In this document: positions 26,477 through 52,456 of the stretch, piece by piece
Numbering within the stretch: position 1 is the first letter of the stretch
Layout: each line of letters begins with the position of its first letter
DNA from: Parietichytrium sp. I65-24A
Taxonomy: Eukaryota > Sar > Bigyra > Thraustochytrida > Thraustochytriidae
Length of the DNA: 64,000 nt
Reading direction: 5' to 3'
NCBI GenBank assembly: GCA_012862575.1
Contig: BLSF01000028.1
Span: forward strand, 372,001-436,000
The notes under the pieces: generated by a model
The model's database searches: none
Seen by the model: only the letters and a program-made list of their open reading frames with translations
Told to the model about the DNA's origin: nothing
Program-made: the position numbers and the translations under genes

Positions 26477-27133
26477 ATGGCTCTTGCAAGGGTGCTGGAA
26501 GACAGCGTCACCAGAGAACTCGATGCCGCTTTCTACGATGCAGACTGGCATGCAGTCGAGGTTTCAGACTTGGCACAGCGGTACAACGTGGACCTGACGG
26601 AGGGACATACCCGTGAGGTGGCCAACAGGCTGTTTGAGTTGCACGGGCCAAACATCTCCAGCACGCCACAGCCGTGCCCTGCTTGGCTTTGTTGCTTGTT
26701 GCCAATGCTGAAGAGGACGCCAAGTATGCTGGCGTACAAGGCGTGTATCCCGGAAAGCGCATACATTGTGAGAGGCGGAAAACAGCTGTGTATTGACCCT
26801 GTCTCCGTGGTGCCAGGAGATATCATTTTAGTGAAAGCGGGCCAACTTGTACCTGCCGACTGCCGGATAGTTGAATGCTCCGATGATTTGGCGTTTTACC
26901 CTTTTCACAGTAGCGAGAGGACGCTTTCGGTCTCAAATCAATCCGACCCAAGGGCGCCCTTTCTCAAATGCAGCTGTGCGCTTTACTTCGGGTGCACTAT
27001 AGCGACTGGTAGCGCAAAGGGGATCGTGGTTGGCACTGGCGAACATACTGTGCTGAGCTCTCTCGTCCGGCGGAAGTTGTGGCCCCCCAGCATTAACCAG
27101 GAGGTGGACGAACAAATGCTCCTTCCCCTGTAA
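26477..27133 (+). CDS. Stand-alone P-type ATPase N-terminal plus actuator-domain protein
   Basis: A 218-residue ORF from an ATG at 26477. Residues 24-65 (DLAQRYNVDLTEGHTREVAN..) match the cation-transporter N-terminal domain of P-type II ATPases. Residues 88-205 match the actuator (A) domain: IVRGGK, then DPVSVVPGDIILVKAGQLVP with ADCRIVEC, and later IATGSAKGIVVGTGEHT. The catalytic TGES loop expected near residue 145 is replaced by HSSERTLS. There is no DKTGT phosphorylation motif, no ATP-binding domain and none of the ten membrane helices; only a short hydrophobic piece (CPAWLCCLL) replaces TM1-2. The frame is intact, and the next gene begins (opposite strand) only 364 bp downstream, so the missing 700 residues cannot be nearby. 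It is either a repurposed regulatory fragment of a Na/K- or SERCA-type pump or a truncated gene still open by chance. Confidence 0.75.
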   Translation: MALARVLEDSVTRELDAAFYDADWHAVEVSDLAQRYNVDLTEGHTREVANRLFELHGPNISSTPQPCPAWLCCLLPMLKRTPSMLAYKACIPESAYIVRGGKQLCIDPVSVVPGDIILVKAGQLVPADCRIVECSDDLAFYPFHSSERTLSVSNQSDPRAPFLKCSCALYFGCTIATGSAKGIVVGTGEHTVLSSLVRRKLWPPSINQEVDEQMLLPL

Positions 27134-38879: not shown

Positions 38880-41800
38880 ATGCGGTGGTACGCACTCTTC
38901 GACGGCGGCAAAAGCAGCAGCTTAAGAAGCAGGATGTATCTCGCCGTGGTGGCCATCGCCATGGCGCTGTCTCTCGCGGGCGGCGTGGACACCGATGGCG
39001 ACGGCAGACTCTCTCGCGCGGAGGTGCATGCGAGCAGATTCTTCCAGCGCACAGATGCAGACGGAGACGGCACCATCTGCGCTGAAGAACTCTCGCGGCA
39101 CATGGCTCGCTTGGGCGCCGACTCCTTGGCTCGCGCTCGCACTGACCTGGACACAGGCATTGGAGTTGGCGACGGGATCGGCACGGGCGCTAAGGCTGGC
39201 ATTCAAGGCGAGGACATCGTCAGGCACTGGGAGCGGCTGACGGCACTGATCACAGCACAGGACGTGGAGGACTGGGTGGCGCACGCAGTCCTGCTTCCCC
39301 AGCATGCGGCTAAATTCCGCGAGAACGGCGTGAAGGGCATTGACTTGCCGCTTTTGCTGGAAGAGCCCGACTTTCTCCGCGAAATTGGCGTGGACGTGGG
39401 GCTACACAGGCGCCAGATCGAGCGCTCCCTGTCTATGAGACTACTTGGCGTGGGCAATGTGCCGCCCACACCTACGCTCGAATGCGTCAAATTGGACCTG
39501 GCCAACAGGACAAAGGGCGGCAAGGGCCAGTTCCGCGCCACGCTAAAGTGGTATACGGATCACGGCAGGGATTCAAACCCGGACACCGGTGCCCACGCTA
39601 ATACTTTCGGCCACGCCAGCGATGCTGGGCGGAGGCTCATCCCGGTGCATCGCTGGCGGGTGTTTTGGAAGCACCCGGCATCGGACGAGTGGACCCTGGG
39701 CGGCGTGTTCGATGGCAGCCGCTCCACGGGGGAGGTGATGCTGCGTATTGAAGGCCAGGTTTTTGAATTGCCAATTTTCAAGCTTGAGGCATGGAACCTC
39801 GTGGGAAGGAGCGACTATGCCTATACAGCATCTTGCTCGCAGATACAGTTTGGCCGAGGGGGTAGTCCGGAGATGAAGAACCCCAGCAAACCTGCGGGGC
39901 TTCTTCCTCTTGCGAGCTCATCGTCGACCCCTGTTGTCAGCAAATCGCAGGGTTGGCTCCCTAACTGCTCGATCGCATCTATGCTTTGGTCCCCAATGTC
40001 TTGTTCAATCTACGGGCCAGGTCATCAGGGTAGTGGCGGCTTGTCTGGCCATGGTGCCGGCATGTCTCCTGATTTGCACACAAAATACGTCTTTGACAAC
40101 GCTGATCTTGACGGCGACGGTGATATTGACGCAGACGAGATGGAAAGCCTGATATTGGGCTTATCGGAGCACCTAGGGCAGTCTTCGGACCGGGGAACTA
40201 CAACCATCCCTTCGGATTCTGAAACAGCGCGAGCTGCATTTTTTCGCAACAAGGGTGTAGAGAGTGGCATTCGAGCTGTGGATGGTAACCAAGATCGTAG
40301 TATTCGACCAGAAGAATTGGAAACACACTGGAAAGGCTTGCAGGGTCTCATGACTGTCGAGCAGACCGGTCGATGGATCAAGCACGCTGTTGAGCTCCCA
40401 GAGTATGAGCAGGTTTTCCACGACCTTGGGGTGACCGGTTTCGACCTTCCTATGCTCGTCGCTGACGAAGGCGCTCTGTTGGAGTCCAAGCTAGGCGTCG
40501 AGAACGCAAAACATCGAGCCTTCTTGGTTCGCGCTATCACAGTGCTTGTTATGGGCATCGGGAGCGTTCCGAATCGTATACACCATGTGGATGTCCGATC
40601 TGGCGAACAGTGCGGCTCCATCAGTCTAGATTGGACCGCCGCGGCTCGTTCATCAAGCGCGAAGAATGAGCTGCCAGTTCATAAATACGTAGTGTTGCGC
40701 AAGTCTAGCGAGAATCCGTACGAAGCCTGGTCGGAGATCTACAGCGGCATGTCCACGTCATTTGAAGACAAGAACCTGTTTCCGGGAAGGTTGTATGCGT
40801 ATCGAGTAGAGGCTTGGAACCTAATCGGTGTATCCCCAACCTATGAGTCCAGCCTCGTGGGACCAAACCGAGACTCTTGTGTTGGCACCTGGGACGGCTT
40901 GTTACGCACACTCTTGAAACTCGTGCTGCTACCTTTCCACATCTTTGGAATCCTTGCAGATAATTACTATCGAATCACCGCGTTCGGTTCCTTAATTGGC
41001 TTCTTGTACATGTTCTCTAATATGCCATATCCAGAGAAACGTCGAGTGATTCTCGCGCTGAGTTCAAAGATGGTCCCCTTGCTTAAAAGCACATTTGGAA
41101 CTGCTTTCGGCCTGGACACGCTATTTCGCACTGCATTGCAATGGCTTGAGAGGAGGCGCGTTCAGCTTGGCTTGGATGACCCTAGCACCATATCCTCTCA
41201 AGCTCGCACAGACATAGGATCGGCGAGCCCGACGCCACTGTCTCCTCACCATGATCTCATAAATCGGGCTGTAGAAGCCACATTCCCTTCTATGCCTCGA
41301 AATCGCGGCCAGCAATTCCCGAGAGGGTATAGCGCCGCCACACGCCCTTCTCGAGAACTGCCAAAGTTGAACACAGTTGACTCGGTGCGTACGCGAAACT
41401 CTTCGTGGGTACACTCCCCCTTTTCTCGGTCGCATCACATTGACCCACTATCTGCGGGGTCAAATGCCTCGCGATCGAGCAAGGACCATACTAAAGATCG
41501 TGATTCAAAGTGGGGTGTGGTTCGGGATCACTTAATGCAGAGGCGTGTCGTGAAGGCTTGGGCTAGCGTTGTGAATGAATCAGTAATGTCTTCAGATACC
41601 GAATCGTCTTCGGTGGCTTCTTTCGACCCCAATGCTTCACCGCGGTCAAACTCCCGAAGAGGCATTCGCCTGCCTAATCCGTTTCGCCGCAAAAAACGGC
41701 GTAGTTCCGAGTCATCTGGAGAGAAGCTGACAGCGCGTAGCAGTGAAGCTCAAGCCTTGCAGCAATATCCGGTATCCGGAACTGGGAATTCGACGAAACC

Positions 41801-42011
41801 ATCTCTATCTCAGCTCTCTCGCGGCGGTGTGGGAAGTACAAAAATGTGTGCCTTCTGTCGTGCTTCCGTGGGCCGCATGAATCGGCACGTCTGCGGCAAA
41901 TGCCATCAGGTCTTTTGTGAAAAGCACACGGCGTACGCCCCGCATGTCATGTTTTTGTCGTGTGGAGTAGAGAGCAAGTGCATCTGCGTGAATTGCGCTG
42001 AATATGAGTAG
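38880..42011 (+). CDS. Membrane protein with two EF-hand/SAM/FN3 modules and a FYVE-like zinc finger (STIM-like sensor)
   Basis: A 1,043-residue intronless protein (ATG at 38880; a GTG two codons upstream is ignored). Residues about 19-34 form a signal peptide or anchor. Module 1 has EF loops 37-48 (DTDGDGRLSRAE) and 59-70 (DADGDGTICAEE), a SAM domain 115-190 and an FN3-like domain about 196-325. Module 2 has EF loops 409-420 (DLDGDGDIDADE) and 468-479 (DGNQDRSIRPEE), SAM 482-560 and FN3 566-662. All four loops have acidic residues at positions 1, 3, 5 and 12 (Asn at 3 in the fourth). The SAM domains contain LPQHAAKF and VELPEYEQVF, close to the LPQYEETF segment of the STIM SAM. Hydrophobic stretches at about 672-692 and 698-713 form the membrane segment. 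A basic/Ser-rich tail of about 275 residues ends in a FYVE-like finger (989-1043: CAFC, NRHVCGKCHQVFC). Luminal EF-SAM plus a cytosolic tail is the layout of ER calcium sensors. Confidence 0.8.
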   Translation: MRWYALFDGGKSSSLRSRMYLAVVAIAMALSLAGGVDTDGDGRLSRAEVHASRFFQRTDADGDGTICAEELSRHMARLGADSLARARTDLDTGIGVGDGIGTGAKAGIQGEDIVRHWERLTALITAQDVEDWVAHAVLLPQHAAKFRENGVKGIDLPLLLEEPDFLREIGVDVGLHRRQIERSLSMRLLGVGNVPPTPTLECVKLDLANRTKGGKGQFRATLKWYTDHGRDSNPDTGAHANTFGHASDAGRRLIPVHRWRVFWKHPASDEWTLGGVFDGSRSTGEVMLRIEGQVFELPIFKLEAWNLVGRSDYAYTASCSQIQFGRGGSPEMKNPSKPAGLLPLASSSSTPVVSKSQGWLPNCSIASMLWSPMSCSIYGPGHQGSGGLSGHGAGMSPDLHTKYVFDNADLDGDGDIDADEMESLILGLSEHLGQSSDRGTTTIPSDSETARAAFFRNKGVESGIRAVDGNQDRSIRPEELETHWKGLQGLMTVEQTGRWIKHAVELPEYEQVFHDLGVTGFDLPMLVADEGALLESKLGVENAKHRAFLVRAITVLVMGIGSVPNRIHHVDVRSGEQCGSISLDWTAAARSSSAKNELPVHKYVVLRKSSENPYEAWSEIYSGMSTSFEDKNLFPGRLYAYRVEAWNLIGVSPTYESSLVGPNRDSCVGTWDGLLRTLLKLVLLPFHIFGILADNYYRITAFGSLIGFLYMFSNMPYPEKRRVILALSSKMVPLLKSTFGTAFGLDTLFRTALQWLERRRVQLGLDDPSTISSQARTDIGSASPTPLSPHHDLINRAVEATFPSMPRNRGQQFPRGYSAATRPSRELPKLNTVDSVRTRNSSWVHSPFSRSHHIDPLSAGSNASRSSKDHTKDRDSKWGVVRDHLMQRRVVKAWASVVNESVMSSDTESSSVASFDPNASPRSNSRRGIRLPNPFRRKKRRSSESSGEKLTARSSEAQALQQYPVSGTGNSTKPSLSQLSRGGVGSTKMCAFCRASVGRMNRHVCGKCHQVFCEKHTAYAPHVMFLSCGVESKCICVNCAEYE

Positions 42012-46832: not shown

Positions 46833-48242
46833 ATGGAAACGTTTCCGGTACTGAGAGTCCAAATCCTGCGAGCTCGAGAGCTTGCTGCTGCGGATTTGTG
46901 CGGGACAAGCGATCCATACTGCGTGCTCAAATACGCCGGACAGAAGCACAAAACGCAGGTTATTTATCGGACGCTGGATCCCATCTGGAACGAGTCCTTG
47001 ACAGTGGAACTTCAGTCCCTCAATTCGAAGAAGAACACCACCCTCACCGTGGAATGCTGGGACAAGGACAATTTCAAGTTTGATGACCCGCTTGGGAAAG
47101 TTGATGTGTGCCTCGGGCCGGTCCTTGCTGATCAAGAAAGGTATGCGCATCCGCAGTGGTATGCACTGGAGAAAATGAGAAGAAGCGGCCCCAAAGTGTC
47201 TGGCCAAATTCAGCTCAAGTTTACGTACGAAGAGATTCCAATCTCTCAAAAGTCAACTTTAGGGACGAATGAAAGCTCGGGGAGCAGGGTTCTATTCTCG
47301 GAAGACGAAGAAAGTGATCGCGAGGAAGAGGAGGAGAACAACGAAAATAGCTCGATCAAACACAACAATGATGGCCAGCAGCACAAGTCGGCGCACAAGT
47401 CGTCCAAGCCTTGGCCAGAGGCAAATGAGCAGCCGAAGCTTGATGATGCAGCAAGGGCAAACACGTTGGCGAGTGAGATTGTCTTTGTTGCCGACATCGA
47501 CAGCGAAATCTTGGATGCCTCAACGCTCGTGACGAATCTAAGTAGCCGCCTCGACGACGCGGACGAACGCTCAAATAGTATGAGCACTGTACGCTCAGAC
47601 AACAGCTTGGAGAGTATATCGGACTCGGTGTCACCAATTGTCGCCAAGGACTCTAGGAAAGTGTCCACTTCGTCAGAACTTGGACGGAGCAGGCACCCGT
47701 TGGAAACGCATTTGCGCAAAAACACAAACGAAGAAATCATCCGCCCTAACAACACCGTAAATCTGCCATTGCTGGTGTTCAAAAAGTACGATGTGGACGG
47801 CGACGGTACCATGTCCAGACAAGAGTTCTTTGATATGGCTCGCGATCTTGGATATCATTTCAGCGAAGAAGACGGCGAGGGCGGAATGGACAATGCCTTT
47901 CGAATTCTGGATCAGGATGGGAGCTCAAAAGTGGAGCTCCATGAGTTCGTGGAGTTTTGGTCGCGCGAGAACCGATTTAAGTTTCTGCAGCTTGACAGTG
48001 AAGGCAGCCACAAGGTGAAGTCGGTGGACGAATATTTTGCTTTCTTCGACAAAGAAGGCGACCAGCGTCTCAATCGATCCCAGTTCAGGGTCATGTACGA
48101 CAATATGATCTTGTCAGGTTACACCATGAGCAACTTTGAGGAGTGCTGGGCCGAGCTTGATCTCAATAACGATGGATATGTGCACGTGAATGAGCTGCTA
48201 GCTTTCACGATCAGACGTGGACTTTTGCAACCAAGTGCGTAA
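46833..48242 (+). CDS. C2-domain and EF-hand calcium-binding protein
   Basis: A 469-residue intronless protein from an ATG at 46833. Residues about 5-130 form a C2 domain: VLRVQILRARELAAADLCG, TSDPYCVLKYAG, TQVIYRTLDPIWNESLTVEL and VECWDKDNFKFDDPLGK give the Asp positions of a calcium-binding C2 (D in TSDPY and in WDKDNFKFDD). An acidic and serine-rich linker (about 140-300) follows. The C-terminal part has EF-hand loops DVDGDGTMSRQE (canonical), DQDGSSKVELHE, DKEGDQRLNRSQ and DLNNDGYVHVNE (canonical); the second is weaker and the third lacks a terminal Glu. The protein likely binds phospholipid in a calcium-dependent way. No membrane segment is present. Copine, synaptotagmin or calpain homology is not supported. 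Confidence 0.85.
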   Translation: METFPVLRVQILRARELAAADLCGTSDPYCVLKYAGQKHKTQVIYRTLDPIWNESLTVELQSLNSKKNTTLTVECWDKDNFKFDDPLGKVDVCLGPVLADQERYAHPQWYALEKMRRSGPKVSGQIQLKFTYEEIPISQKSTLGTNESSGSRVLFSEDEESDREEEEENNENSSIKHNNDGQQHKSAHKSSKPWPEANEQPKLDDAARANTLASEIVFVADIDSEILDASTLVTNLSSRLDDADERSNSMSTVRSDNSLESISDSVSPIVAKDSRKVSTSSELGRSRHPLETHLRKNTNEEIIRPNNTVNLPLLVFKKYDVDGDGTMSRQEFFDMARDLGYHFSEEDGEGGMDNAFRILDQDGSSKVELHEFVEFWSRENRFKFLQLDSEGSHKVKSVDEYFAFFDKEGDQRLNRSQFRVMYDNMILSGYTMSNFEECWAELDLNNDGYVHVNELLAFTIRRGLLQPSA

Positions 48243-51748: not shown

Positions 51749-51951
51749 TTTGATTTCTTTCCTGTTTTGCACGTGATTTTTTTTTCTTCTACTCGACCCA
51801 GACTCGTGGTCCTCCAATTTTCTTTGCCGCGCTGATAGCCTAGGCTGTAAGCTGCGAGGGTGTTGACGGTTCACAAATGAAAAGACAAAATAAGAAAAAA
51901 AGAAAAAGGAAACGAGAGAAAAGAAAATGGCGACAAATGAAGGGAAAAAAG

Positions 51952-52024
51952 TACTCGCGCCGGGGCTCGAACCCAGGACTTCAACCGTGTCAGAGTTGCA
52001 CTCTACCAACTGAGTTACGCGGGC
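51952..52024 (-). tRNA. tRNA-Val (anticodon GAC), downstream copy
   Basis: The 73-base gene folds as a cloverleaf: acceptor GCCCGCG with CGCGAGT, D arm ACTC/GAGT, anticodon stem CAACT/GGTTG with loop CTGACAC (anticodon GAC, U33 present), five-base variable loop AAGTC, T arm CTGGG/CCCGG with loop TTCGAGC, discriminator A73. The acceptor contains a C3-A70 mismatch and a G1-U72 wobble. The B box GGTTCGAGCCC is intact; the A box is TAACTCAGTTGG. A run of six T lies 5 bases after the gene on the minus strand, a good Pol III terminator. Valine is inferred from the anticodon and A73. Confidence 0.85.
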
Positions 52025-52046
52025 ACAACAAGAAGAAAGAAGGGAT

Positions 52047-52119
52047 TACTCGCGCCGGGGCTCGAACCCAGGACTTCAACCGTGTCAGAGTTGCACTCTA
52101 CCAACTGAGTTACGCGGGC
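52047..52119 (-). tRNA. tRNA-Val (anticodon GAC), upstream copy
   Basis: Identical over all 73 bases to the copy at 51952-52024, including the acceptor mismatch. The two copies are 22 bases apart, and the spacer (CCCTTCTTTCTTCTTGTTGT and flanking bases on the minus strand) contains no run of four T. This copy therefore has no terminator of its own, and the pair could be transcribed as one Pol III precursor ending at the T6 after the second copy. Confidence 0.85.
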
Positions 52120-52456
52120 ATCCGATTTTACCACTTGGTTATCTCGAGGTTGAGACCTGCCTTACGAATACTTTGGAAGAACCCCCTGATAGGAAAGCCC
52201 ACTAGTAGCTTGCTGAGCAAATTTTTGAATGACTGAAGCGAAAATTTTCCGTTCCGAATTTTGATTTGAAAGGCGAAGAACTGCACAGTTCTTCCGCAGG
52301 CGAGGAAAAAGAACCGGCGTTTACAAAGCTTCGTTCATCTTTCGAGCAGTTCCGCAAACGACGTGGAGAGCGGATACACAAAACGAAGCGAGAACCTTGA
52401 GAAGAAAAGTGCACGCGATCAGTGTGACAGGACGGGTGTGAGTTGGAGGCAGGAAG

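Follow-up and report, generated by a model that had tools for sequence, protein, structure and literature searches.

In a window of 64,000 nucleotides from the thraustochytrid Parietichytrium sp. I65-24A (contig BLSF01000028.1, positions 372,001 to 436,000), we found one gene for a protein in which EF-hands, a SAM domain, and a fibronectin type III (FN3)-like domain occur twice in that order, followed by hydrophobic stretches, a basic tail, and a C-terminal zinc finger. We tentatively read this tandem EF-SAM protein as a STIM-like Ca2+ sensor of the endoplasmic reticulum (ER) with a new architecture, a reading to which we would give slightly less than an even chance. The domains, their duplication, the similarity to STIM, and the occurrence of Orai and IP3-receptor-like genes in the same genome are all read from the sequences themselves. 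The overall build agrees with an original prediction made from this DNA, which had a signal peptide, two EF-SAM-FN3 units, a membrane segment, a basic tail, and a finger in that order; the corrections concern the EF-hand content, the FN3 domains, the identity of the finger, and the membrane stretches.

Similarity to the EF-SAM region of STIM

From our phmmer comparison with 177,635 distinct PDB sequences, the EF-SAM fragment of human STIM2 was the top match of the whole protein (1.5e-7) and also of the EF-SAM unit of its second half, hereafter copy 2 (7.9e-9). The SAM domain of copy 2 alone matched STIM2 at 2.1e-7 and STIM1 at 1.7e-4, the best non-STIM entry among the 20 matches listed being at 0.0016. 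A profile built from the two copies found STIM2 at 3.9e-11 and STIM1 at 1.1e-6, with one calmodulin in between. In the reverse search, the 91-residue STIM2 fragment had five matches in the organism’s own genome (42.5 Mb, 172 contigs), led by copy 2 (2.3e-8, over fragment residues 2-88), with copy 1 next (1.2e-5) and then a C2/EF/SAM protein (1.4e-5). The STIM-like EF-SAM region that had been predicted is upheld in copy 2, which is the best match of STIM2 in both directions, and the case for STIM rests mainly on this copy. At E <= 1, SAM_2 occurs in 59 stretches of this genome; the gene itself contributes two, and many lie on contigs C14 and C4. As controls, two of the 57 stretches outside the gene were compared with the PDB; liprin and SARM1 were the best matches of one, with no STIM among the best 60 of its 80 matches, and caskin was the best match of the other, with no STIM in any of its 57 matches.

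The similarity to STIM reaches upstream of the SAM domain into the hidden EF-hand in the copy 2 alignment. Among 154,917 distinct 19-mers from the open reading frames (ORFs) of 42 sequences, the hidden-EF 19-mer of copy 2 ranked 4th against STIM2 and 3rd against STIM1, ties included, a rank that is not independent since the 19-mer was picked from the STIM alignment; that of copy 1 ranked 281st and 48th, respectively, when the better-scoring of two registers was taken. In STIM1, Leu192, Leu195, and Leu199 are the anchor residues of the last SAM helix (PMC10400917). Mapped by hand from the following Gly, these positions correspond to V550/I553/V557 in copy 2 and to E181/L184/L188 in copy 1. With STIM1 and STIM2 of animals and choanoflagellates (PDB 2k60, 2l5y), the tandem EF-SAM protein shares a signal-like start, followed in order by a canonical EF, a hidden EF, and a SAM domain whose last helix carries hydrophobic anchors, and then a membrane stretch and a basic C-terminal tail. 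It differs from them in its two EF-SAM units, the FN3-like domain behind each, an extra EF in copy 1, a longer linker from the EF to the hidden EF, the C-terminal zinc finger, and a doubtful number of membrane spans. We did not file it as a member of the STIM family because SOAR was searched for in the protein and not found.

The segment VELPEYEQVF of copy 2 had been likened to LPQYEETF of STIM. We rejected the LPxY...F motif as STIM-specific evidence and regard it as generic among SAM domains, because LELPQYGAQF occurs in another SAM protein encoded by this genome. That protein, the C2/EF/SAM protein of the reverse search, is encoded by a 3774-residue open frame on contig C52 (L029:3-8732) that combines EF-hands and six C2 stretches with a SAM domain carrying LELPQY. 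EF-hands and a SAM domain are common to both proteins, but the C52 protein differs in its C2 stretches, in a charged coil-like stretch before its SAM, and in a STIM2 match that starts only at fragment residue 17, past most of the hidden EF.

Domain anatomy and internal duplication

In the whole protein, EF-hand_5 (6.4e-13, three stretches) and SAM_2 (4.9e-11, two stretches) were over the Pfam cut-off. Searched as single pieces, both SAM copies passed SAM_2 and neither passed SAM_1, in line with the SAM domain predicted for each copy. The EF-hands of copy 1 as a separate query were over cut-off for three EF models, and the EF-hand of copy 2 stayed below all of them (24.2 bits against 25.4 at best). 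Instead of the same EF pair in both halves, as had been proposed, copy 1 carries a pair of canonical loops spaced by only 22 residues, plus a degenerate hidden EF, and copy 2 has one canonical loop and a near-canonical hidden EF. A lanmodulin chain was weakly (0.084) among the PDB matches of the copy 1 EF pair (window 38988-39089). The two copies are homologous (BLASTP, 2e-24), and their similarity stood 8.9 (EF), 29.6 (hidden EF and SAM), and 8.7 (FN3) standard deviations above 500 shuffles. On this alignment evidence, the two halves are a diverged internal duplication.

The FN3 domains are less clear-cut than predicted. Pfam fn3 did not exceed its cut-off in the whole protein (0.15) or in the copy 2 piece (0.022, 15.4 bits against 25), and it was not listed for copy 1, which sets both copies apart from typical fibronectin type III domains. 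The likeness lies in the copy-to-copy similarity, in the motif EAWNLxGxS in which both copies finish, and in a copy 1 model of moderate quality. This model showed seven strands at the FN3-like domain (predicted local distance difference test, pLDDT, 60-79 in the better blocks and lower in the loops) and five helices at the SAM domain (block pLDDT 41-58). At E <= 0.001, Foldseek gave 27 matches to the copy 1 model and none to that of copy 2; Brr2 Sec63 was first in the copy 1 list, which included FN3 domains (best 1.5e-4) as well as other folds. No STIM chain was among the best 50 Foldseek matches of either low-confidence model.

Signal sequence, membrane stretches, basic tail, and finger

Nowhere in the protein is the predicted insertion energy lower than in the hydrophobic stretch near the N-terminus, which is consistent with a signal sequence, as had been predicted; S31/A33 or A33/G35 would presumably meet the (-3,-1) rule for signal cleavage. 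The single membrane segment claimed behind copy 2 resolves into two marginal hydrophobic stretches, so that a hydrophobic region is present and one clear segment is not. We argue for a single pass with a cytosolic tail because of the putatively luminal N-terminus and the net charge of the tail, and a hairpin of both stretches may be an alternative.

The long basic tail was found as predicted. Its polybasic cluster reads RLPNPFRRKKRR, and the zinc finger comes after it. N-glycosylation sequons also occur from residue 840 onward. The spacing of the finger is compatible with a cross-brace fold, and its Cys/His spacing (CGKCHQVFC) resembles that of FYVE and AN1 fingers, but it was below both Pfam cut-offs, both as a piece (AN1 0.0085, 16.6 bits against 27.9; FYVE 0.029, 14.9 against 27.8) and in the whole-protein search (AN1 0.33; FYVE 4.6). 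The FYVE identity given to it could not be confirmed; AN1 fits about equally, and the basic patch and WxxD, which we take to be features of FYVE, are absent. A search of the own genome for a relative of the finger gave one match, the finger itself.

Orai and IP3-receptor-like genes in the same genome

The original prediction had pointed to an Orai-type channel, the kind that STIM opens in animals, as something to look for in the same genome, and a homologue is present (Table 1). Its best PDB match is the CRAC channel chain 6bbf (3.1e-10), which we take to be Drosophila Orai. The first helix gfevvvlveiqv aligns to gfamvamvevql, and the selectivity glutamate is kept, VEIQV aligning to VEVQL. Beside this gene, an open frame (L030:7392-9890, minus strand) matches PA14 over cut-off and shows a sub-threshold lectin-like match. 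A further open frame on contig C129 carries Ins145_P3_rec (4.3e-25), RIH_assoc (9.3e-19), and Ion_trans (2.5e-15) and is, by these domains, an IP3-receptor-like channel.

A possible sensing mechanism and its alternatives

We infer the luminal side, the Ca2+ release step, oligomerisation, plasma-membrane contact, and Orai gating from this arrangement. The N-terminal part would enter the ER lumen, where each EF-SAM unit would stay closed as long as its EF-hand holds Ca2+ and its last SAM helix occupies the EF-hand groove. Upon store depletion, the EF-hand would release its Ca2+, SAM surfaces would be exposed, and the chains would cluster. In this luminal part of the mechanism the protein would act as STIM does. 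With two unequal EF-SAM units, one chain could link its neighbours and react to two different Ca2+ levels, and the FN3-like domains may be spacers. Clustering would carry the basic tail with its finger to the plasma membrane, and the tail would there recruit or open the Orai channel of the genome. That the protein is in full a tandem STIM-type ER sensor outside opisthokonts, activating Orai through a cytosolic device unrelated to SOAR (the basic tail and zinc finger), is a more doubtful proposition than the general sensor reading, and we hold it at about one chance in three. The link to store-operated calcium entry was offered as inferred in the original prediction, and we leave it at that strength.

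Several observations weigh against the sensor reading. STIM2 is matched by copy 1 no better than by a generic SAM from the same genome, and among PDB entries copy 1 fits SHANK3 best (0.0021); a further STIM1 chain, 6pw7, matches the copy 2 EF-SAM unit only at 0.39. EF loop a of copy 1 begins directly after the signal sequence and would therefore lack an entering helix once the signal is cleaved. SOAR was not among the nine Pfam families listed for the protein at E <= 10, a search whose filters drop most weak matches, and no SOAR over cut-off was found in the six frames of the genome with introns ignored (two matches fell below threshold, both outside this gene), where control genomes likewise gave none over cut-off. 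The AlphaFold2 models, built from two-row alignments, had a mean pLDDT of 37.5 for copy 2 and 52.2 for copy 1 and are too weak to judge the EF-SAM fold. Both hydrophobic stretches are marginal, which makes the number of spans doubtful, and if both spanned the membrane the tail would be luminal. In the Orai homologue, the equivalents of Arg91 and Glu190 are not kept, by our reading of the alignment and on the numbering that we assume. Finally, relatives for conservation tests were not found in viral_contigs (0 confirmed from 8 pattern hits) or genome_contigs (0 from 591), as expected because the gene is eukaryotic.

The same features could belong to a receptor or adhesion protein of the cell surface or endomembranes, with the FN3-like domains and Ca2+-stabilised EF-SAM units outside, a tail that signals inside, and no store-operated role. 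FN3-like domains are typical of extracellular proteins, the N-terminal half holds two N-glycosylation sequons, at residues 209 and 362, and SOAR was found neither in the protein nor over cut-off in the genome; however, FN3-like domains are compatible with the ER, the SAM domain stands beside a hidden EF as in STIM, and copy 2 and STIM2 pick out each other. We consider such a receptor unlikely, though well worth keeping in view. A tether at membrane contacts of the ER or endosomes, with structural EF-SAM units and a tail and FYVE/AN1-type finger that bind lipids or other partners, would account for the basic tail and the cross-brace-spaced finger and for the fact that no channel-activating domain was recognised in the Pfam search of the protein or the SOAR search of the genome. 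We regard it as rather improbable; four canonical or near-canonical EF loops and the hydrophobic SAM anchors of copy 2 would suggest sensing over scaffolding.

It is also conceivable, if on balance unlikely, that EF-hands and SAM were joined independently here and that the resemblance to STIM is convergent, without common descent. The abundance of SAM_2 stretches in this genome and the presence of another EF and SAM protein, than which copy 1 scores no better against STIM2, are what would be said for convergence, which we rank slightly above the receptor. Yet the similarity of copy 2 spans the hidden EF and the SAM domain, last helix included, and the two control SAM stretches resemble liprin/SARM1 and caskin best.

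Gene features and genomic context

Table 1. Features of the tandem EF-SAM gene (positions in the window) and of the partner genes (positions on their contigs).
Feature	Residues	Position	Strand	Basis
Whole gene	1043 aa	38880..42011	+	One uninterrupted frame, ATG 38880, stop 42011
Signal sequence / N-terminal hydrophobic stretch	15-36	38922..38987	+	Predicted insertion energy -0.44 kcal/mol
Copy 1 EF loop a	37-48	38988..39023	+	Canonical DxDxDG...E; Pfam EF-hand stretches
Copy 1 EF loop b	59-70	39054..39089	+	Canonical; Pfam; aligned to the canonical EF of copy 2
Copy 1 degenerate hidden-EF exit helix	107-120	39198..39239	+	Aligned with copy 2; inside STIM2 match
Copy 1 SAM	125-186	39252..39437	+	Pfam SAM_2 1.2e-5
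Copy 1 FN3-like beta domain	197-325	39468..39854	+	Seven modelled strands; FN3 in Foldseek matches; matches copy 2
Copy 2 canonical EF loop	409-420	40104..40139	+	Pfam in whole protein; copy 2 alone under cut-off
Copy 2 hidden-EF loop	468-479	40281..40316	+	Near-canonical, Arg at position 6; STIM1/STIM2 alignment begins there
Copy 2 SAM with STIM-type last helix	489-559	40344..40556	+	Pfam SAM_2 2.2e-4; STIM2 top PDB match
Copy 2 FN3-like domain	566-665	40575..40874	+	Pfam fn3 0.022, below cut-off
Hydrophobic stretch 1	674-693	40899..40958	+	Predicted 0.34 kcal/mol
Hydrophobic stretch 2	696-712	40965..41015	+	Predicted 0.74 kcal/mol
Basic tail	721-985	41040..41834	+	Net charge +21; polybasic cluster within 929-943
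Zinc finger, cross-brace spacing	990-1039	41847..41996	+	CxxC-x11-CxxC-x4-CxxH...CxxC; Pfam below cut-off
Orai homologue	244 aa	C29, L030:4767-5501	-	Pfam Orai-1 9.6e-35, 120.2 bits against cut-off 25
IP3-receptor-like open frame	3528 aa	C129, L028:4479-9899 and L036:2-5155		Pfam on two halves

With a codon-usage table trained on six neighbouring ORFs, the frame of the gene ranked first of six in nine of ten blocks of 100 residues, the exception being block 901-1000; residues 1001-1043 lay outside the scoring. No close second copy of the gene was found in the own genome, where the three matches were the gene itself and two at 0.001 and 0.05. The latter, on contig C19 (to residues 724-829), was considered as a paralogue and rejected as chance because no similar protein was seen in its frames by eye. 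The neighbours are ordinary eukaryotic genes: upstream lies a kinesin, downstream on the opposite strand an ALG6/ALG8-family glycosyltransferase, and beyond it a cullin. The window also carries a 469-residue C2 and EF-hand protein near the gene (46833-48242, plus strand), a piece of a P-type ATPase (E1-E2_ATPase 6.9e-14; 26477-27133, plus strand), and two adjoining tRNA-Val (GAC) genes (51951-52120, minus strand).

Host position and significance

The EF1A of the genome is without the opisthokont insertion, and a single frame encodes both DHFR and thymidylate synthase, two traits that we take to place the host outside Opisthokonta and Amoebozoa. No elicitin match was found in the genome, a search in which no control gave a match either, and neither of two TPI frames was seen by eye to continue into GAPDH, for which no search was made. 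No PfaA over cut-off was found in the genome (13 weaker matches). These three tests lent no support to an oomycete, which we had considered at first, or to a thraustochytrid. On contig C66, a 5583-residue open frame that matches the PfaA profile repeatedly below threshold resembles a modular enzyme of the polyketide-synthase type.

In the literature, STIM is traced to around the animal base (PMC7016017) or known from animals and choanoflagellates, with another sensor expected elsewhere and with oomycete and brown-algal Orai shown in a tree (PMC11085791). Other reports describe no STIM or Orai in nine oomycete genomes, where a P. infestans hit shares the SAM only (PMC4820453), restate this absence (PMC9694693), and find neither STIM nor Orai in the protozoan parasites examined (PMC3194816). 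Among the full-text literature matches listed, we found no report of a tandem EF-SAM protein or of an EF-SAM/FN3/finger protein, and an earlier mention is possible. The sensor presumed to be absent outside animals has a candidate in the tandem EF-SAM protein. Should this prove a true STIM-type sensor that activates Orai, the use of EF-SAM units to monitor store Ca2+ would predate animals or have passed from one lineage to another, and a sensor would have been identified for Orai channels outside animals. In essence, an Orai homologue, an IP3-receptor-like gene, and a STIM-like tandem protein occur together in a genome judged non-opisthokont, which makes the question of the sensor directly testable.

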